DNA from: an uncultured Schlesneria sp. | GTDB lineage: Bacteria; Planctomycetota; Planctomycetia; Planctomycetales; Planctomycetaceae | Assembly (NCBI GenBank): GCA_903834925.1 | Contig: CAILLA010000136.1 | Coordinates: 1 to 64,000 of the forward strand | DNA length: 64,000 nt | Reading direction: 5' to 3' | Shown: positions 23,543 to 35,131 of the stretch, one piece after another | How the letters are laid out: each line of letters begins with the position of its first letter | How positions within the stretch are numbered: position 1 is the stretch's first letter | The notes under the pieces: generated by a model | What the model was told of the DNA's origin: nothing | Databases searched by the model: none | The model's input: only the letters and a program-made list of their open reading frames with translations | Made by a program: the position numbers and the translations under genes

Positions 23543-25108
23543 TCAGGGGCTTGTTTGGGATTCTACGAGGCTTTTCAGTAGATTGCCCCAGTCTTCACCT
23601 GTCATGGCATTGGGAATCAGTTCTGAGCGAAAATCTCTTGGGCTGTCGATGATTGTTGGCGCTGTGGGGAATCTGAGCCTATCCATGGCGGTCTTGAGCT
23701 TTTCCGTGAACGGCTTCGAGTCGCGATGAGACGTTGCAATTCCCAATAAGACGCTGGCGGTCTTGTCCCATGAAGAAACCAGCTTTTCCTGTTGCTTCAG
23801 GACAATTTCGCGAAGCAAACGATCTGTGTCCATATCATTGGACTGAAAGCAATTAAGCCACGTTTGCAGTTTGTCACGGACAATTCGTGATTGTACAGAT
23901 GTCTGTGCGGCGCTGGGAATTTCGGTTTGTTTAAGCATTTGATCTAGCTGCTGAAAGGCCGTGAAAAACTCGTTCGATTCTGACGAATTCACTTCGTCGG
24001 CCAGAATCTGAATCAGTTCGAGACTCCAACTTCCCCAAGGCATCGCCAGGCGTCCCGTTTGCTTGCCGGTCAGATCCAGGCCAGGAAATCCTCGCATCTG
24101 TCTCCACGACGGCTCAGTTAAATCGTGATGGCAGGCAAAACAATTGTATTCGGATAATTCCGGCCAGGATGACTGTTGAGTTGTATCGCCGATTACGGTG
24201 CAGGAGTTGGCTCGGTCTTCGAGTTGTTCCAGAGCGGCAATCGCGGTGACAAGCTGGCCAATGAACCATTCGCGAGATCGAAGACTGTTGGTTGCCGTAC
24301 GACTTGGCTTCCAATGTTTTGGAAGGCGGGAAAGATACCAGGTGTATTCAAACTTTAATGCGGGATGACCAGCGGCGATCAGATCGTGATTGACATCAGC
24401 CTCGCCGCCACCAACGTGGCAGGCGGCGCATCGTTTGACTCGGCCTGACACGTCACCGGCCGCGAAGAAATGAAGTCGATGCTTTTCCTCGGTGGAAGTT
24501 TTCTTATCCCAACCATCTTGGACATGAAGATTCAGCCATTCCCGCGAGTCACCGTGACAAGATTCGCAGCTGACACCTTCCGAAAAATAATTCGCTTGAT
24601 CCGCCAGTGGGGCTGCTCCGGACAAATGCTGATTTGTATCGTGACAACCCTGACAGTTCTTCCAGTGCTTTTTCTCCGCTTCGCTGGCCGCTTTGCCTGG
24701 CGGTAATTTGGTTCCCAGACCCAGCCGTTCAAATATTTCCTGAGACTTTTTTCCCAGTAGGGTTTGGCTCGCCTTGGCGTGCGGGTCGTCCATCCACACA
24801 TAACACTCGTCACGGCGAATGGCTTGAACGTTTGGATCGCAAGTCAATGAACCATGACAGTTCGACGTGGAACACGACTGCGTTCGAGTCAGAGTCGTAG
24901 CCCCGGAATCTGACTCGAATTGAAATGCAGTTGCTCGCGAATCATCAGGCCGTTTTGGTTCCGGCCGATTGTTATAAACGGTCTTGATACCAAGTCCTGC
25001 GAAAATGGCGAGCCAGCCGAAAGCGACGATGACTAGCCATCGATTCGTCGTAAGGCCGTTCATCCCAATTGGCCGCCAGGAATTGCCCGACATTGACGAA
25101 GGCTTCAT
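23543..25108 (-). CDS. Penta-haem c-type cytochrome (cytochrome c554-like)
   Basis: CSTSNCHG (CX4CH) + CQGCH, CESCH, CAACH, CFACH; NHDLIAAGHPALKFEY. Confidence 0.88.
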   Translation of the reverse strand: MKPSSMSGNSWRPIGMNGLTTNRWLVIVAFGWLAIFAGLGIKTVYNNRPEPKRPDDSRATAFQFESDSGATTLTRTQSCSTSNCHGSLTCDPNVQAIRRDECYVWMDDPHAKASQTLLGKKSQEIFERLGLGTKLPPGKAASEAEKKHWKNCQGCHDTNQHLSGAAPLADQANYFSEGVSCESCHGDSREWLNLHVQDGWDKKTSTEEKHRLHFFAAGDVSGRVKRCAACHVGGGEADVNHDLIAAGHPALKFEYTWYLSRLPKHWKPSRTATNSLRSREWFIGQLVTAIAALEQLEDRANSCTVIGDTTQQSSWPELSEYNCFACHHDLTEPSWRQMRGFPGLDLTGKQTGRLAMPWGSWSLELIQILADEVNSSESNEFFTAFQQLDQMLKQTEIPSAAQTSVQSRIVRDKLQTWLNCFQSNDMDTDRLLREIVLKQQEKLVSSWDKTASVLLGIATSHRDSKPFTEKLKTAMDRLRFPTAPTIIDSPRDFRSELIPNAMTGEDWGNLLKSLVESQTSP

Positions 25109-26757
25109 CTGCTCCCTTTAATCGAGAGCGTCTTTTTCAACTCTGCCGCACCAATTTGACCATTGTTCAACATTTCGTTGATGCCCGGACGAAAATCCGC
25201 TTTGGCATGTGTATGGTGATAATCATGACAGTCAACGCATTTGTCGCTGACGGAACCACGACCGCCGTTCGATGACCCATGACCATGACATTGCTGACAA
25301 AGTTCAATGCGTGGCATTAAAACGTCTTGAGCAGAAATACTGGCGTAGATCGACGTCGATGATTTTTGTTGTTCTTTGAGAACGGGATAGTAATCTTCGC
25401 GCTCAGACGGTTCATGAAGTCCACCATTCCGCGTGTGGCATTTCCGGCAGTCAACAGAAAAATGACGGTCATGCCGGAACTGGCTATGAGCCATCCATTG
25501 GGAGGGGATCTTCGTCGGGATTACACTCCAGCCGACGCTCCCTTTGTTATCTTGTCTGGTAAAGTGGCACTTGGTACACGACTTTTCGAAAGGACTCTTT
25601 ACATGATTTCTTGGCTCGACATTGTCGAACCCGGTCGCCTCAAACAACTGCGATTTCACCTTCTGGAATTCCGCACGAATGTCGTCCTGAAACGCGGCAT
25701 CAATTGGCTGCAATTTTGGGTCGAGATCGCGTGATGGCGGATCGATTGGGGGCTTCGTTGGGCCTCCGATTTCATCGGATTGCACCGGTCGATCCCCCTT
25801 GTTCTTCAGGTTCTTCACCAGGTTGTCGAGAACGATCCCTTGAACGATTTCGGGATCGGCATGCGGAAGCTCGCCGGTCGACGGGAATCCTAATTTGTGA
25901 CACTGGTAACAATGTTGCTGATAGTTAATCGGACGAAAATAGGCTCCGTTGGGTTCGGCCTGATGGCAATCCACACAATCGAGTGACGTTGTCTTTCCGT
26001 TGCCAGCTGGAAGATTGGGGTCAAGATGGCGACGGTGGTTGAAAAGAATTTTCGAGGCATCAACGGGATGATCGATTTTACCATCGTTTGGCCAATTGAC
26101 CGGACTGTCCGCGCGATCTCGGTTCAATGCTTCTGACTTGCGCCAAATTCCCAATTGAGTATGCTGAGAGAAATCTGAAAACTTCAGTTCGAAGCGGTGT
26201 TGGCCGTTCGGTTCTTTGGATTTTAGCAAGTGATCGACTTGCAAATGGCAATTGGAACATTGTGCATCAGAGACCTGCGTCAATTCTGAATGACCTCGAT
26301 GCTCTTCATGACAGCCAGCACATTTCAAAGGACTGATCAGCGTTTCTAATTGAGCTTCCAGGATCGCATGCCGATTTCCCCAGGCGAATTCTTCGTCTTT
26401 GGTCTTGGGCAAAAAGTGGTCATTATCGTTCTTATTGGATTCGCGGTGACACGACTGACATTTTTTATCCGAGGTCGATGTCCACGAGTTATTGAATGTG
26501 ATCATCCTCCGTAACGGTGCGCCACTTTGATCGTGACACTGACTGCAATTCTGTTCAAACGATTTATGGGCGTTTGAGACACAGCGGGATTCAAACGCAC
26601 GATGATCACCCAGCAGCCAGGGGACACACGCAAGGACTGTACCGATCAGAAACAGAGCGGACAGCCGAAACCGCATGAGGCGCAAAGGGTCCCGATGCCT
26701 GAGAACATCGAGATCATAACGGCTTGCAATTGTTTTCAGTCGACGTCGATCAGCCAC
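25105..26757 (-). CDS. Deca-haem c-type cytochrome, membrane anchored
   Basis: Ten CXXCH: CSQCH, CQSCH, CAGCH, CSNCH, CVDCH, CYQCH, CTKCH, CRKCH, CQQCH, CVDCH; N-terminal TM; 4-nt overlap with the next gene. Confidence 0.9.
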   Translation of the reverse strand: MADRRRLKTIASRYDLDVLRHRDPLRLMRFRLSALFLIGTVLACVPWLLGDHRAFESRCVSNAHKSFEQNCSQCHDQSGAPLRRMITFNNSWTSTSDKKCQSCHRESNKNDNDHFLPKTKDEEFAWGNRHAILEAQLETLISPLKCAGCHEEHRGHSELTQVSDAQCSNCHLQVDHLLKSKEPNGQHRFELKFSDFSQHTQLGIWRKSEALNRDRADSPVNWPNDGKIDHPVDASKILFNHRRHLDPNLPAGNGKTTSLDCVDCHQAEPNGAYFRPINYQQHCYQCHKLGFPSTGELPHADPEIVQGIVLDNLVKNLKNKGDRPVQSDEIGGPTKPPIDPPSRDLDPKLQPIDAAFQDDIRAEFQKVKSQLFEATGFDNVEPRNHVKSPFEKSCTKCHFTRQDNKGSVGWSVIPTKIPSQWMAHSQFRHDRHFSVDCRKCHTRNGGLHEPSEREDYYPVLKEQQKSSTSIYASISAQDVLMPRIELCQQCHGHGSSNGGRGSVSDKCVDCHDYHHTHAKADFRPGINEMLNNGQIGAAELKKTLSIKGSR

Positions 26758-26898: not shown

Positions 26899-27891
26899 CT
26901 AATAGTAAATCGCCGTCATGATGTGCAACAATCCCAAGACCAGTAGGGTCAGGCATAAAGGAACGTGAAGATGTAACCACCCATGCAGCCACCCGTGAAT
27001 TCGCGACTGAAACAAAAGTTGTCGTCGTTCATCGCAAGCAGACTCCATCTCATCAATGACTGGCCGTAGGTCTTCGGTCACGCTGTCTCGTAATCTCGCG
27101 AATCTCGCGGTGGCCAGTGTGGGGTTTGCCAGATCGTGTGATCGATTCGCATCTGAACTTAAAAAGCTGTTAAGCTGATCCCAGTAAAATGTGGAAAGTT
27201 CAAGCTTCGGCGAAAATGACTCATGTTGTGACGTTTTGACCGGCATGCCTTGTTTCGACGGATTGATTCCAGAGGTTGTCACCGCGAGTTCGGAGGCCCC
27301 TTGACTGCGGGACAACGAAGAAAATGGCTCGAGAAAAGCACTTTCGCATACCTTTTGTACGGCAAGTTCTGTCGAACGCCGTAGCCTTTCACAGGCAACT
27401 TCCAGCTGAGGCGCGATCGCCTGAGCGGGAATGTTTGAGGCCATGACTCGTGGCAGAATTTGTTGAACGGCAAGACCATATATTCCGCTCAAAATCACGG
27501 CCGCAAACGTCAGCATCAGGCAAGACTCAAGTGCCCCACCCAAACGGAACCCGCCGTGGCAAAGAATCAGGGGAACACTCAAAAGACTGATCCAGATATG
27601 ACCGCGAAGCCATGTCTGAGCACTTCCAACCTGCCACTTTGGAATTTTCTTTCGCCAAGCCAAAAGGCCGGCGTAAACCATACAACCAGTACCAGCGACA
27701 CCAAAGAGCATTCCTTGCCACGATCCGCCACTTGCACCATTCGGTTCGGTCCGAGCGTAGATCCAGTAGAGGATGAACGCCACCAGTGTTAAACAGGTGG
27801 TCGTCAAAGCCCAGGGGACATGCGAACGATCAACAATCACAACAGACCTCGAAAATCGGGGGTCTAAAACGAGTTTTTTCCTAGCATACAA
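26899..27891 (-). CDS. Integral membrane protein, putative b-type cytochrome
   Basis: 330 aa, about 5-6 TM; His in or near TMs (RGHIW, LCHGG, HGWLHLHVPL, LLHIM); in cytochrome operon. Confidence 0.5.
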   Translation of the reverse strand: MYARKKLVLDPRFSRSVVIVDRSHVPWALTTTCLTLVAFILYWIYARTEPNGASGGSWQGMLFGVAGTGCMVYAGLLAWRKKIPKWQVGSAQTWLRGHIWISLLSVPLILCHGGFRLGGALESCLMLTFAAVILSGIYGLAVQQILPRVMASNIPAQAIAPQLEVACERLRRSTELAVQKVCESAFLEPFSSLSRSQGASELAVTTSGINPSKQGMPVKTSQHESFSPKLELSTFYWDQLNSFLSSDANRSHDLANPTLATARFARLRDSVTEDLRPVIDEMESACDERRQLLFQSRIHGWLHGWLHLHVPLCLTLLVLGLLHIMTAIYY

Positions 27892-28032: not shown

Positions 28033-31000
28033 ATGACACGACAGCCGGTGCGGGTTAAAGACCACCAAGACAGTCAACTTTTGAGCAAACGCGATATGGA
28101 TGGCGGACAGCAGCAACCTGCTTTGAAGCAACAAACCGTTAAAACGCAGATTCATCTTGATTCTCGATCAGGCGACAAATCAGTCGATTCCGATCTACTG
28201 GCTCAGTTTGACCTGTTCCGAAGAATGAAAAAGCCCATTTCTGCCGAGAAACTGCCTGGTGGCATTGTCCTGCGCCGGTACAACAAAGGGGAAATCGTCT
28301 TTCAACAGGGGCAGGCTGGCGGAACGGCATTTTATATTCCCACCGCCGAAGACTTGAATCGAATCAAGGCCTTAGATGCAGATCTGCAATCATCATCGAT
28401 TGCGTCAGATGCCCCCGACCGAAATCGGCAGATCCTGACGGCGGTGATTGTTCCATCAACCGCGCGAACACGGACCAAAGGTTTCTTCGAACGATTGTTT
28501 TCGCCATCCACCAAGACTTCGTCTCGACAAATCAGTTCAATTCCGAGTGACGGACCGACTGACATCAATTACGAGACCCGAGAAGCACCGTTGATGGAAG
28601 GTGATGTTTTCGGTGAAATGAGTTGCATTTCGTTCACTCCTCGTTCGGCAACCGTCATCACGCGAGTCGACTGTTTGCTCCTGGAGTTTAATCGTAATGT
28701 CTTCGAGACACTCCGCGATGACCCGAACCATCAAGCGGCGGTGGACAAAGAATATCGTCGACGTACGCTCGATACGCATCTTCGCCAATTCCAGATTTTT
28801 AGTGGCCTGACGGAATCTCAGATTCAAACACTTAAGGACAACGTCACACTGGAAATCGTCCCGCCGGGGAAAGTGATTTGCGAAGAGGGAGAACCATGGT
28901 CAGATTCAAAACCGCTCGACGTTTTCATCGTACGAAACGGTGTTGTTCAAGTGATTGCCAACACGAATTTGTCTCTGGGAATGGATGACATTCGCGATTG
29001 GACGACCTTTTGTCGTCAATTGAATGAGAGCCAGGCCGAAGCGCCGAAACCAATTGCAAAACCGGCCGCATCGCCAATTGCACGTGGTGCAGTTTCCGCT
29101 CCAACAACTGACACGAAGCCTGTTTCACTTGCAGAGCGCGTGGCAGCCCCACAGGTTCTAACCGATAAGGGATCAGCGCACGCGACTTCAGCGCCGGCCG
29201 ATGTCAGTTCCACGCCCAAAAAGCTCTCGCCACTTGAGCTAATGCGAGCCAAACAAGCGGCCGCTGCCGCTCCTCAGGATTCCTCGACACCTGCCGCCGG
29301 CTCGCCAGCAACGAAAGAAAAACCAGCGGACGACGCGGTCGCCCCGAAAAAGCTATCGCCGATCGAGCAAATGCGAGCCAAGCAGGCAGCGACAGCGCAG
29401 GAATCTTCCGTGGTTGCTGGCGAACAGCCAGCCGTACCCCTTGTCGAGAAAAAACCAGCCGACGAAGTGGTCGCCCCGAAAAAGTTGTCGCCGATCGAGC
29501 AAATGCGAGCCAAGCAGGCGGCCGCTGCGGCAGCGAACGCACAGGAATCTTCCGTCGTTGCTGGCAAGAAGCTAGCCGTACCCTCTGTTGAGGAAAGACC
29601 AGCGGAAGAGGCGGTTGCCCCGAAAAAGTTGTCGCCGATCGAGCAAATGCGAGCCAAGCAGGCGGCGGCTGCGGCAGCGAAAGCACTGGAACCTTCCGTC
29701 GTTGCTGGCGAACAGCCAGCAACACCCTCTGTCGAGGAAAAACCAGCCGACGAAGTGGTCGCCCCGAAAAAGCTGTCGCCAATCGAACAAATGCGAGCCA
29801 AGCAGGCAGCCGCCGCAGCGGCGAAAGCACAGGAATCTTCCGTAGTTGCAAGCGACCAGCCAGCTGCTAATCCTGCGGAAGAAAAACCTGCGGACGCCGT
29901 CGCAGCGCCCAAAAAACTATCGCCGCTTGAGCAAATGAGGGCCAAACAGGCCGTTGCCGGCTCTGGTCCAGCTGCTACTAAACAGACTTCTTCCGCCCCG
30001 ACCGGCGAAATCACCGCTGGCCCAAAGGGAAATCCAAATGCCACAACCGCCAACCTGGAAAAGCCGCAAACCCCATCGGGGAAGGCCAGTATCGAAGTCG
30101 ATGTAAACCTGCCATTGCTGCGAGCCAAGCGTCTTGACCAACCGGGGTCACTCGTTTTTCTGGTCAAATCGTGGCTGAACGATCATGTCCTTGAAGCGGC
30201 TCAACGGATTGCCAATCTGACGTTAACCGGCGAGCCTTTGATTCACGCTCAAGAATTGGTCCTTTCCGCCCTCAATCAACTGCTCGGTCGCCCTGATTTC
30301 TTGAACGATAAGCGGTTAATTTCGGACATTTATGTTAAGCCTGAGCTCCTGCGAAAAGTGGCTACTTTCCCGAAAGGGATCAAGGGGATTGAGAAGAGTT
30401 GGTCGGAGCTGGAATTGAGAACCGCCGGACGCGCGGCATTCAGCGAAATTTTCCCCGATCTGATTCGCAAACCCATCGAATCGTCCGGGCCGCCGCGCGT
30501 TCTCGCTTACCTGTCGCGCGGCGAATGTTTTGGTGAAATTGCGGTGGTCACTCGCAGTCCGCGTAATGCGAGTTGCATTGCCTATAACCATCCTTCGACA
30601 GAAGAAGCTCGCGATTTTGGCAATGTTGAACTCGTGCGAATTCGTGGTGCGGCCTTTCGCAAGCTCATGGATGAATCACCGGCGCTGAAGCAGCAGGTCG
30701 AATCTCTCGCACAAAAACGCGTCAAGCAGACGCAATCTTCGGGTGCGAAACATACAGAATCCGACCTGATCGCCTCGGCCGAGTTTCAACAGATGGGACT
30801 CTTTCAGGGAAGTCGGTTACTCGTCATCGACCTGGATTCGTGTACGCGTTGTGGCGATTGCGTTGAGGCGTGCGTGAAAACCCACGATGACGGTTATTCG
30901 CGATTGTTTCTGGATGGACCACGCTATGACCGATTCCTCGTGCCGTCGGCTTGCCGAAATTGCCTCAACCCCGTCTGTATGCTCGGTTGTCCTGTGGGAT

Positions 31001-31764
31001 CGATCGGACGAGGCAATAATGGCCAGATCGAAATCTATGACTGGTGTATCGGTTGTTCCAAGTGCGCCGATCAGTGCCCGTACGACTCGATTCAAATGCA
31101 CGACTTGGGCCTGATTCCAGAAGAATCCCTCGGGTGGCTTTGTGCCAGTCGTCGATCATTACCCGATGACTGGTATCGGGCAAGGCGGCTGAGCGGTGGC
31201 TGGATGCAAGGAACGTCACCTTTTCTCTGGCAAGGAGATTTTCTCAGGAATTGGACCGAAAGCGTTGCTGAGGCACAATCCATTACGATCTGTTTTCGTC
31301 ACGAGTTTCGTTTGCCGAAGAAATCGAAGAACAGCCACTATCGGCTTTCCATTAACGATGATCGGCGCAAGAGTACTTTGACGAAGATCCGGATCAAAAA
31401 ATCCACTGTCGTCGGAGTCTGGTTGAACGGGAAAAAGCTGGATTGGTCAGGAAATTCTCTTGATCTGTCCACGGAAGATTTTCTCACCACCGAAAACGTC
31501 CTTGCGGTGGAAGTGTCATTGGATTCGCCAATCCCCTACGGTCAAATTGTCCTGTCGGCCTGCCTCGACGCTGTCCCGGAAGCCAGCCTGCAAACACGCG
31601 CGATTCTTGGAGACCAGGTGCTGCCTGAAATGGACCTGGTGACGAGTCGTGCGGCGGTTTGTGACCTGTGCAGTCATCTCCCTAGCCAGCAACCAGCCTG
31701 CGTATCATCGTGCCCGCACGACGCAGCCATCCGTATCAATCCCTTGATCAACTTTCCGACTTAG
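28033..31764 (+). CDS. Cyclic-nucleotide-binding-domain / 4Fe-4S ferredoxin fusion protein with internal tandem repeat array
   Basis: 1243 aa; GDVFGEMSCISFTPRSATV and GECFGEIAVVTRSPRNASC cNBD-like cassettes; CTRCGDCVEAC, CRNCLNPVCMLGC, CIGCSKCADQC, CDLCSHLPSQQPACVSSC. Confidence 0.85.
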   Translation: MTRQPVRVKDHQDSQLLSKRDMDGGQQQPALKQQTVKTQIHLDSRSGDKSVDSDLLAQFDLFRRMKKPISAEKLPGGIVLRRYNKGEIVFQQGQAGGTAFYIPTAEDLNRIKALDADLQSSSIASDAPDRNRQILTAVIVPSTARTRTKGFFERLFSPSTKTSSRQISSIPSDGPTDINYETREAPLMEGDVFGEMSCISFTPRSATVITRVDCLLLEFNRNVFETLRDDPNHQAAVDKEYRRRTLDTHLRQFQIFSGLTESQIQTLKDNVTLEIVPPGKVICEEGEPWSDSKPLDVFIVRNGVVQVIANTNLSLGMDDIRDWTTFCRQLNESQAEAPKPIAKPAASPIARGAVSAPTTDTKPVSLAERVAAPQVLTDKGSAHATSAPADVSSTPKKLSPLELMRAKQAAAAAPQDSSTPAAGSPATKEKPADDAVAPKKLSPIEQMRAKQAATAQESSVVAGEQPAVPLVEKKPADEVVAPKKLSPIEQMRAKQAAAAAANAQESSVVAGKKLAVPSVEERPAEEAVAPKKLSPIEQMRAKQAAAAAAKALEPSVVAGEQPATPSVEEKPADEVVAPKKLSPIEQMRAKQAAAAAAKAQESSVVASDQPAANPAEEKPADAVAAPKKLSPLEQMRAKQAVAGSGPAATKQTSSAPTGEITAGPKGNPNATTANLEKPQTPSGKASIEVDVNLPLLRAKRLDQPGSLVFLVKSWLNDHVLEAAQRIANLTLTGEPLIHAQELVLSALNQLLGRPDFLNDKRLISDIYVKPELLRKVATFPKGIKGIEKSWSELELRTAGRAAFSEIFPDLIRKPIESSGPPRVLAYLSRGECFGEIAVVTRSPRNASCIAYNHPSTEEARDFGNVELVRIRGAAFRKLMDESPALKQQVESLAQKRVKQTQSSGAKHTESDLIASAEFQQMGLFQGSRLLVIDLDSCTRCGDCVEACVKTHDDGYSRLFLDGPRYDRFLVPSACRNCLNPVCMLGCPVGSIGRGNNGQIEIYDWCIGCSKCADQCPYDSIQMHDLGLIPEESLGWLCASRRSLPDDWYRARRLSGGWMQGTSPFLWQGDFLRNWTESVAEAQSITICFRHEFRLPKKSKNSHYRLSINDDRRKSTLTKIRIKKSTVVGVWLNGKKLDWSGNSLDLSTEDFLTTENVLAVEVSLDSPIPYGQIVLSACLDAVPEASLQTRAILGDQVLPEMDLVTSRAAVCDLCSHLPSQQPACVSSCPHDAAIRINPLINFPT
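29215..29991 (+). repeat. In-frame tandem repeat array, 6 copies headed by PKKLSP(L/I)E(L/Q)MRAKQA
   Basis: Unit starts at 29215, 29344, 29476, 29620, 29764, 29908; spacing 129/132/144/144/144 nt, all multiples of 3. Confidence 0.92.
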
Positions 31765-31790
31765 ACCTTAGACCCGTTGAACCACCAAAA

Positions 31791-33389
31791 ATGATTGACT
31801 TCCGAACAGCCTTGAATTCGATCAACCCCAACAAAGAATCGGGGATGCAGGCGAATTCGTGCTGTCGGATTTGTTCCGCATTGACAACCGGCCTCTTCGC
31901 ACTGCTGATCGCAGGCCCAAATGATGCCCAAGGCCAAGTCCCTCCAGCACCGACGCCGATTTCAAGGATGATCGAAAGTACGGATCACATACCCGCGCCG
32001 ATGATGACCTCCGTCGATTCGGCCCAGGGTTTCTTTGCAAAAAACTTTCTGGGGAGTCAATCCTGTACGGCGTCAAGTTGCCATGGAAATCCTCGACGGG
32101 AATCAGTAACTGGATCAGCGGCACATTTTTTCTTCGATGCTGATCGTCACCAGCGAGGCGGAGCCGTTCTTCGTGAAAGACGTTCGAAAGAGATCGCCGA
32201 ACGATTGAACCTCCCTCAGCCCGCATGGGAAACAAAAGAGTGCCTTGTTTGCCACGCACCGGCTGCGATTCAATCCGAGAATCGCCAGGATTTTCAAGCG
32301 AAACTCGCAGAAGGGGTTGGCTGCGAAAGCTGTCATGGACCGGCTCGAAACTGGCTGACTCTTCATCATACGCTCGAATGGAAGTCCCCCGAGATCTGGT
32401 CCAGCGAAATCAAAGAAGAAGTGGGCTTCCGCGAAACCAAGAACCTGCTGAACCGCGTTAATGATTGCGCCGATTGTCATGTAGGTAACGCAAATCAGTC
32501 AGTCAACCATGATTTGATCGCGGCCGGACATCCGCGGCTTGTGTTTGAATACGCTGCCTATCAGTCGATGATGCCGGCTCATTGGCGACGTTCTGAAGAT
32601 CGACAGAGACAGGCGTCGGCTCGTAATTCGTCATGGAGTCAACCAACTTCTGAAGCGTGGGACTGGCTACTCGGACAACTCGTCAACGCCGAACATGAGC
32701 TGAGCATCGTGTCTGCTTCGGGCAGCAATCCAAATGCCGTCTGGCCAGAACTGGCTCAATACGATTGTTTTGGTTGTCACCACGACTTGAGGACAAAAAG
32801 CTGGCAACAATCGCGGGCCGCATGGGACTTGAAACCCGGTGAGTTTCAATGGGGAACTTGGAATCTGGGTTTATTGCCTGAACTGAAAAAATCCTTGAAC
32901 GACGTTGTCGACGATCGATTGCTCGAAAACGTATCGGTGCTTCAAAAGAGGATGAGGTCTCCAACCGTCGAAAGAGCATCCGTTTCCGGTACCGTTCTCG
33001 AATTGCAGCAACAACTGCGTCAGGCGGCATTATCGCTCCAGAAGAAAGGGCTACGCACCGAGGACCTTAGGGTGATTCAGAGATCGTTGCTCAATGATTC
33101 CGCACGATTCACCAACCAAGGCTGGGATCGGTCGACACAGCTCTACCTTGCGCTTGTCGCGATCGATATTGGATTGTCCGAAAATCCCTACATGACAGTT
33201 CGCATGAATCCAGCTCGTGAAGTGACTTACCGTCAGTTGCGAGAGCAGTTGTCTTTCAGAGACTCGACGAAATTGATTCCGCCCCTAGAACATCGCGAAA
33301 GCCCATTTCGTTTGCAGGATCACTGGTCGACAATTCGACAGAACTTTGACGATCTGACGATCCAACTCAGTACGGAGCCGCAGAGATGA
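31791..33389 (+). CDS. Penta-haem c-type cytochrome (cytochrome c554-like)
   Basis: ATG 31791; CTASSCHG (CX4CH) + CLVCH, CESCH, CADCH, CFGCH; NHDLIAAGHPRLVFEY. Confidence 0.87.
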   Translation: MIDFRTALNSINPNKESGMQANSCCRICSALTTGLFALLIAGPNDAQGQVPPAPTPISRMIESTDHIPAPMMTSVDSAQGFFAKNFLGSQSCTASSCHGNPRRESVTGSAAHFFFDADRHQRGGAVLRERRSKEIAERLNLPQPAWETKECLVCHAPAAIQSENRQDFQAKLAEGVGCESCHGPARNWLTLHHTLEWKSPEIWSSEIKEEVGFRETKNLLNRVNDCADCHVGNANQSVNHDLIAAGHPRLVFEYAAYQSMMPAHWRRSEDRQRQASARNSSWSQPTSEAWDWLLGQLVNAEHELSIVSASGSNPNAVWPELAQYDCFGCHHDLRTKSWQQSRAAWDLKPGEFQWGTWNLGLLPELKKSLNDVVDDRLLENVSVLQKRMRSPTVERASVSGTVLELQQQLRQAALSLQKKGLRTEDLRVIQRSLLNDSARFTNQGWDRSTQLYLALVAIDIGLSENPYMTVRMNPAREVTYRQLREQLSFRDSTKLIPPLEHRESPFRLQDHWSTIRQNFDDLTIQLSTEPQR

Positions 33390-35131
33390 GTATCGGATCG
33401 CGTCAGACACTTCTGTGTTTTTTAAGCCTGCTGTTGACGTGCATTCTCAACCAGTTCGCGTATTGTGACGAGGATGTTTCTCGTGACGTACGAGATCGTT
33501 TCGGAACACCCGACAACGGGTCTCGCGTAGTCGTTGGGCTGAAAACCAGTAAATGTTCGATCTGTCACGGCAAAGCGATTTCAGCAGCGAGCGAAGAATT
33601 ACCATCGGATGTGCAGGGACGCGGAAATGATGGCTGGATCCTGGGTGACGAATTACTCACATGGGTCCGCGACGATTTTCACTATCAGGCATTCAGCGTA
33701 CTTTTGAATGACCAATCCCGGCAAATGGCGAAAAGACTCGGCATCGTCGATGCAAATGGAGAATCCGCAGTCCATCAGGACCGACGATGTCTGTCCTGCC
33801 ATGCGTCAATTCCAGTGACTCAGATGTCGTTAGATGGAGACCGCGTCACCCATGATACGTCAACAGATTCTCGCTACACGATTGGCGTGTCGTGCGAAGC
33901 GTGCCACGGTCCTTCCGGTCGGAAAGGGGACGGACCTTCGGGCTGGGAAGAAGCACATGTTGTCGATACGCGCTGGCGAACGATGAATCCAAAGACCAAG
34001 TTCGAAGACTTTGGATATTGGGATATCCATTCTCCCAGAACTCAGACTCGTATTTGTCTTTCGTGCCACATGGGTAATGTCGAGCAAAAAAAGGTGATTA
34101 CCCACGAGATGTACGCGGCTGGCCATCCGCCACTTCCCAGTTTTGAGCTTTCTCAATTCATCAATCAAATGCCAAGGCACTGGCGTCGGTTGGAAGAGAA
34201 ACCGAAATCCTTGCGTGAGAATGTCATCGAAAAACTGACCCAACTCCGACAAGATGGTGACTTTTTCGTGATTGGCGACACCGAACTTGCTGCCACCAAA
34301 TTGACAATGATTTCGGCACTGGTGACGCTGGAAGAATCCATGACATTGACCGCGAATCTGATCGCCGATTCGGCCACGTCGCAGCAGTGGCCGGAACTTG
34401 CCAACTATTCTTGCTTCGCATGTCACCATGAACTCAGCCGTGACGGATGGCGGAAGAAAACAAGATTGAGCAAATTCCCAGGGCGGCCGACGCTTCACGA
34501 GTGGCCATTTGCACTCTCACGCGTGGTTGCTACGGAAATCATCAACGACCAAACCGAACCTGCATTTCAGGAAAACTTGAATGCAATGATTACGGCGATG
34601 ACGGCCCGACCGTATGGTGACTCAACGCAGTTAAAGTTGACAGCCAGGGCTCTTGCCAAAGCGATCGAAGCCGAAACAAAAATCTTGGGCTCCATGACAA
34701 TTGATCGAGAACGAGCAAATCGCTTTTTGACGCAAATCGCGTTAGCGGCGTCGACGGAGTCAACAGATTACGATTCCGCTCGACAGTTCGTCTGGGCTTA
34801 CGAGCGGACCTTCGATGCATTAAACAAGCCAGAGATTTCCACTGACTTCGCAGTGACACAAGAACAAACGAAAAGTCCACAAAAATGGATTGGTGGTCAT
34901 CCGATCCTTGATGAGTTTGAACAAGACCTTGTGCTTTGGCTGCGAGCGAATCGCACGAAAGAACCTTCGGTCAAGTTGGGTTCAAATAAAGAAGCTTTCC
35001 AGCATTCGCAGCGTTCGACCAACGTTTCTGAATCGCTGAAAAAGATTGCTGAATACAATCCACAAAAAACCAACGAACGCTTTCAGCGGCTGCTGAAATC
35101 TCATGTCAATCCGACCGAACAAATTCGCTGA
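33386..35131 (+). CDS. Penta-haem c-type cytochrome
   Basis: CSICH, CLSCH, CEACH, CLSCH, CFACH; YAAGHPPLPSFELSQFINQMPRHWRR; ATGA overlap with previous gene. Confidence 0.88.
   Translation: MSIGSRQTLLCFLSLLLTCILNQFAYCDEDVSRDVRDRFGTPDNGSRVVVGLKTSKCSICHGKAISAASEELPSDVQGRGNDGWILGDELLTWVRDDFHYQAFSVLLNDQSRQMAKRLGIVDANGESAVHQDRRCLSCHASIPVTQMSLDGDRVTHDTSTDSRYTIGVSCEACHGPSGRKGDGPSGWEEAHVVDTRWRTMNPKTKFEDFGYWDIHSPRTQTRICLSCHMGNVEQKKVITHEMYAAGHPPLPSFELSQFINQMPRHWRRLEEKPKSLRENVIEKLTQLRQDGDFFVIGDTELAATKLTMISALVTLEESMTLTANLIADSATSQQWPELANYSCFACHHELSRDGWRKKTRLSKFPGRPTLHEWPFALSRVVATEIINDQTEPAFQENLNAMITAMTARPYGDSTQLKLTARALAKAIEAETKILGSMTIDRERANRFLTQIALAASTESTDYDSARQFVWAYERTFDALNKPEISTDFAVTQEQTKSPQKWIGGHPILDEFEQDLVLWLRANRTKEPSVKLGSNKEAFQHSQRSTNVSESLKKIAEYNPQKTNERFQRLLKSHVNPTEQIR

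Follow-up and report, generated by a model that had tools for sequence, protein, structure and literature searches.

A motif array nested within a discontinuous cNBD of a predicted planctomycete iron-sulfur protein

The window analysed here, a stretch of 64,000 nucleotides of DNA from an uncultured Schlesneria sp., contains an open reading frame in which a repeat array lies between two sequences resembling the halves of one cyclic-nucleotide-binding domain (cNBD). This raises the questions of whether the array is indeed inserted within a single fold, as an earlier note on this DNA had claimed, how such an architecture was built up, and what the array could do. The features of the locus are listed in Table 1. 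The encoded protein comprises two cNBDs, behind which four ferredoxin-type cysteine motifs make up the C-terminal part, and PF00027 matched the whole protein with 71 bits, against a Pfam cut-off of 27.5. The gene is present in one copy in its own genome (9.0 Mb, planctomycete), and no relatives were found in viral contigs. The true start may be M22 (MDGG, 28096) rather than the first ATG; orthologues begin with MDGG (e.g. L035). A match to Pfam DUF294_C falls within the array and was set aside as a low-complexity artefact.

Table 1 Features of the locus, in positions of the window
Feature	Position	Strand	Remarks
Four-haem cytochrome c554-like	23543..25108	-	
Ten-haem cytochrome c	25105..26757	-	10 CxxCH
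Partner membrane protein	26899..27891	-	5 predicted TM, compact, zero motifs here
cNBD-cNBD-[4Fe-4S] protein	28033..31764	+	1243 aa; ORF intact; orthologues
cNBD1, first half	28195..28341	+	residues 55-103; PF00027 on residues 1-255, 47.1 bits, 2 stretches
cNBD1 insert	28342..28596	+	85 aa, residues 104-188
cNBD1, second half, phosphate-binding cassette FGEMSCISFTPRSATV	28597..28740	+	Pfam stretch 187-228; E and R conserved in relatives
cNBD2, first half	28777..28953	+	residues 249-307; compact-paralogue HMM, residues 265-310 = profile 44-84
Whole cNBD2 insert, beta4-beta5 hairpin	28954..30498	+	515 aa, residues 308-822
Helical insert, first part	28954..29022	+	residues 308-330, ends DIRDWTTFCRQL; aligned in all insert-bearing relatives
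Array site	29023..30156	+	378 aa here; 9-12 aa in most ~750-aa orthologues
Six KKLSP[LI]E[QL]MRAKQA motifs	29218..29952	+	mostly 48 aa apart; A/P/K/E-rich spacers
Array motif, peptide form			KKLSPIEQMRAKQAA
Helical insert, second part	30157..30498	+	residues 709-822; tblastn to array-less orthologues from ~711, 43-45% identity
cNBD2, second half with GEIAVVTRSPRNASC	30499..30747	+	HMM residues 821-896 = profile 89-170
First three [4Fe-4S] cysteine motifs, HycB/NrfC/DmsB-like	30808..31104	+	Pfam Fer4_9, Fer4, Fer4_10 above cut-off
Insert before last cysteine motif	31105..31650	+	~184 aa; 28-29 aa in ~750-aa orthologues
Last cysteine motif CDLCSHLPSQQPACVSSCPH	31651..31731	+	alignment to ferredoxin-type subunits
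Four-haem cytochrome c554-like	31710..33389	+	
Five-haem cytochrome c554-like	33386..35131	+	

With regard to the second cNBD, 515 aa separate RNGVVQV, which ends at residue 307, from VLAYLSRG, which starts at residue 823. When the two halves were joined, PF00027 matched with 43.8 bits (E 2.5e-11); the C half alone reached 30.7 bits and the N half alone gave no match. A profile of compact cNBD2s, built from the paralogues L045-L050 only, matched the protein twice, at profile positions that adjoin each other, with 510 aa between the two matches in the protein. An end-to-end alignment of the joined halves with solved cGMP-kinase cNBDs (4-132 of 144) was also obtained, the cut falling in the beta4-beta5 hairpin, and a compact paralogue aligns to PKA regulatory subunits across the stretch covered by the joined domain. 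The AlphaFold models of cNBD1 (219 aa, alignment of 3 sequences, pLDDT 34) and of cNBD2 (686 aa, alignment of 6 sequences, pLDDT 40, pTM 0.24) were uninformative because of the few sequences in the alignments. They were too poor to judge packing, and the single-fold conclusion therefore rests on sequence. On that basis, the claims that the array lies inside one cNBD fold and that the second half (residues ~819-880) follows the first (residues ~249-307) at a distance of about 500 aa were borne out. Two separate complete domains, which the earlier note had named as the contrary outcome, were not seen: neither half by itself has a full set of strands, and the halves correspond to complementary parts of one profile. 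We therefore regard the predicted cNBD2 as almost certainly discontinuous, with a nested-insertion architecture.

An alignment of 35 relatives revealed how the insert varies in length at a single alignment position, from 9-10 to 634 aa, which is the variation among orthologues that had been proposed as a check. Paralogues have 9-10 aa there, and most ~750-aa orthologues a helical insert of 140-150 aa. In L042 the insert measures 204-239 aa, and in an array-less paralogue from the genus 280 aa; the array carriers, in which it comprises the helical insert and the array, reach 332, 438, 515 and 634 aa. G145 contains a further paralogue with an insert of 164 aa and zero motifs. Draft contigs of G143, G145, G146, G002 and G129 end within arrays, so that array lengths from drafts are lower bounds. 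The ~750-aa orthologues already possess the helical flanks, and two predicted helices are joined there by a loop of 9-12 aa in place of the array; the tblastn matches to array-less orthologues begin directly behind the array, at residue ~711. The order is therefore cNBD, then helical insert, then array. The predicted protein is thus a nested insertion, in which cNBD2 encloses the helical insert and the latter encloses the motif array. The single insertion described earlier was correct in placing the array inside cNBD2 and missed the older helical insert that encloses it; likewise, the array and the helical segment of about 150 aa are both present between the halves, the helical part being split into 23 aa before the array and 114 aa after it.

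The array itself is a true tandem repeat with a period of 144 bp and near-identical units (TRF scores 559-783), and its KKLSP motifs start at residues 396, 439, 483, 531, 579 and 627. Across carriers, the motif shows S, T, N or D at position 0, proline at the next position and E or D at position 3. The pattern S/T/N/D-P-x-E is that of a helix capping box. As the motif starts with a helix cap, each copy probably forms a short helix carried by a flexible linker, and the low-confidence AlphaFold model places a helix at each motif (pLDDT 40). A search of the own genome with the array recovered this locus only, at the sensitivity of the search, and no matches outside the family were obtained in the sampled class genomes at E 1e-4. 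We also observed a small protein in the same genome (L134:1459-2136, G000:C128) that ends in three such motifs, KSPLDAIRAQQAAKAG, KPSPLDMIRKQQAAKAA and KPLSKLEMIRLQGAAKK; its N-terminal ~75 aa have no Pfam match, and homologues with more motif copies occur in G092-G095, G044, G045, G048, G069 and G110. A Rieske protein (L083, G066:C262, open frame 1380-2630) carries N-terminal STADILAAARA repeats whose motif looks related, and a string of this type was not found in the own genome.

The locus belongs to a gene cluster (iron-sulfur protein, 5-TM protein and ten-, four- and five-haem cytochromes) that is conserved in more than 10 genera of the family. Of four-haem c554-like genes, the locus has two, one on either side, and most clusters of the ~750-aa class have one. 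The composition of the cluster points to a cytoplasm-to-periplasm electron-transfer complex, which would be membrane-bound. In the paralogous clusters L063 and L064, a NuoE-NuoF fusion, a cytochrome-b-like protein and multihaem cytochromes accompany the cNBD-iron-sulfur protein, which has a NuoG-like N-terminus; both the NuoG-type N-terminal iron-sulfur region and the NuoE-NuoF neighbour are absent in the window. A second, array-less gene copy (L057, G145:C82; 941 aa) lies without cytochrome neighbours. The iron-sulfur protein has no predicted TM segments and is predicted to be cytoplasmic. Besides the three domains given in Table 1, its C-terminal part matched Fer4_7 and Fer4_6 above the Pfam cut-off, and none of the NCBIfam equivalog cut-offs was reached (e.g. 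ArrB 31.9 of 450, DmsB 30.7 of 214). The insert before the last cysteine motif is found only in the array-bearing clade and in the G145 paralogue, and gave no Pfam match and no convincing PDB match.

The same motif was found on the membrane partner in related bacteria. In a sister clade, the array (motif KKLSP[LI]E[QL]MRAK) is usually located in the TM4-TM5 loop of this partner, which the earlier note, correct as to the location in cNBD2, had missed. Iron-sulfur proteins with 2-7 motifs occur in the window and in G091, G139, G147, G143, G145 and G146, and the membrane protein of these clusters is compact, with 0 motifs (open frames of 299-360 aa, that of G147 being cut by the contig end). In most clusters of the ~750-aa class, motifs are absent from the iron-sulfur protein and number 2-14 on the membrane protein (555-1043 aa); the exceptions are the membrane proteins of G044 and G104, with one motif, and of G080 and G128, with none. 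None of the clusters counted bears an array on both subunits, the paralogous clusters have no motifs on either subunit, and shuffled proteins yielded ~0.05 motifs. An unbiased search with the array of the window recovered the membrane partner of other genera. Exact strings of 12-13 residues are shared between this array and the loop of the partner, for example KKLSPLELMRAKQ in the window and G108, and the local alignment scores of array and loop were well above those of shuffles for most. By the positive-inside rule, the array-bearing loop is predicted to be cytoplasmic, as is the iron-sulfur protein. Among the predicted proteins, the motif therefore occurs on alternative subunits of one cluster. 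In the tree, the two array states form two sister clades separated by one switch (support 89/85), so the exclusivity counts once and not as many independent observations; a reading as many independent events was dropped for this reason. Motif number and spacing vary widely, and a few membrane proteins carry a single motif or lack it altogether, so that the array can be dispensed with in some clusters.

The first cNBD is also interrupted, as had been noted for the equivalent loop: 85 aa lie between TAFYIP and EGDVFGEMS. In NuoG-like paralogues, the stretch between TAFYIP and GDVFGEMS comprises 45-60 aa; array carriers have 82-91 aa there, and ~750-aa orthologues 115-156 aa. The glutamate and arginine of the phosphate-binding cassettes FGEMSCISFTPRSATV and FGEIAVVTRSPRNASC are kept in nearly all orthologues, and two class III cyclases are encoded in the own genome, which makes binding of a cyclic nucleotide by the cNBDs plausible.

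Our inferences concern the formation of a complex, the binding of a ligand, the role of the array as a tether and a possible link between ligand and array, and they are as follows. The gene product would be the cytoplasmic iron-sulfur subunit of a complex with a 5-TM cytochrome-b-like protein and multihaem cytochromes c, and its two cNBDs would sense a nucleotide-type ligand. Both are interrupted at the beta4-beta5 hairpin, a solvent-exposed loop that by homology adjoins the ligand pocket; given this exposure, the domain could fold around an insert. The older helical insert of cNBD2 (~140 aa) would then have taken up the string of six motifs, which could serve as a multi-copy docking tether, either by attaching to a shared partner or by bringing complexes together. 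Either cytoplasmic part could carry the string, cNBD2 here and the loop of the membrane subunit in the sister clade. On balance, we favour a docking or clustering function of the array for the complex.

Several known systems resemble parts of this protein. The regulatory cNBDs of PKA and PKG (PF00027) share the tandem arrangement, the strands and the glutamate and arginine of the cassette; they differ in having few residues in the beta4-beta5 hairpin, compared with 515 aa here, and in being fused to a kinase rather than to [4Fe-4S] clusters. In the cAMP sensor cAMPinG1, an entire cpGFP is inserted into the beta4-beta5 loop of PKA-RI and tolerated there (PMC11093745), so an insert at the same hairpin could fold and be ligand-coupled here too, although that segment is engineered and the present one natural, disordered and repetitive. 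Ferredoxin subunits of the HycB/NrfC/DmsB type have similar cysteine motifs and a position beside membrane and haem partners, but lack the added cNBDs and stand apart by the equivalog cut-offs given above. The NuoG-like paralogues (L063/L064) share cysteine motifs and cluster position, and their clusters carry NADH-dehydrogenase-type partners.

Linker proteins of the EPYC1/CsoS2 type carry spaced binding motifs. An example of a spaced-motif linker is described in PMC11570498. The array resembles these linkers: it has short motifs spaced in a disordered linker, with varying copy number, and the low-confidence model forms a helix at each of its six motifs. In contrast to them, the array is embedded in a folded domain and, across clades, resides on one or the other subunit of a single complex. 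A limited search of the literature for the combination of cNBD, [4Fe-4S] and planctomycetes, or for the array, found nothing, which is weak evidence.

Among the alternatives, the array may be a neutral low-complexity expansion, produced by replication slippage in a tolerant loop and providing spacing at most. Its A/P/K/E-rich composition, the near-identical 144-bp units with variable copy number and the motif-free 164 aa of the G145 paralogue would all fit such an origin. However, it is the motif and not the spacer that is kept across species and in unrelated proteins, the exact 12-13-mers are common to the array and the loop of the partner, and the motif turns up again in the own genome, on a small protein unrelated to this one; we therefore consider neutral expansion possible but rather unlikely. 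A regulatory array, in which SP sites are phosphorylated or the helices of the motifs obstruct ligand pocket or electron path until ligand binds, would profit from its position next to the pocket (by homology) and from the S-P or equivalent in nearly every motif. This reading is less probable still, given that N, D or T stands in place of the serine in L036, L081, L082 and G105, a substitution more in keeping with helix capping than with phosphorylation, and that the array of the sister clade resides on a protein without a cNBD. That the two halves of cNBD2 are two different degenerate domains is very improbable: the low-confidence model (pTM 0.24) gives the joining no support, but the complementary profile matches, the compact relatives, in which these halves are 9-10 aa apart, and the end-to-end alignment with solved cNBDs all speak against it. 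An assembly or frameshift artefact is hardly credible, since, despite contigs of G143, G145 and G146 that break within the array, the ORF is intact here and in L031/G139, G091 and G147.

Returning to the docking or clustering function, the findings suggest that the array may be an attachment device, movable between subunits, that serves a respiratory complex. A wider reading, in which it is a relocatable helix-motif module of planctomycete respiratory complexes, presented on the ligand-sensing hairpin of a discontinuous cNBD or on the cytoplasmic loop of the membrane subunit, and nucleotide binding controls their clustering or tethering, is speculative and would more probably prove wrong than right. 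The predicted protein offers a natural case of stepwise nested insertion in a cNBD, from 9 to 140 to more than 500 aa at one site, and this site is the hairpin that protein engineers picked for a cAMP sensor. The cluster also indicates an electron-transfer complex, as yet undescribed, into which nucleotide sensors are built. Furthermore, as the motif occurs on different subunits of the same putative complex in sister clades, the role of a disordered repeat string in bacteria becomes testable.
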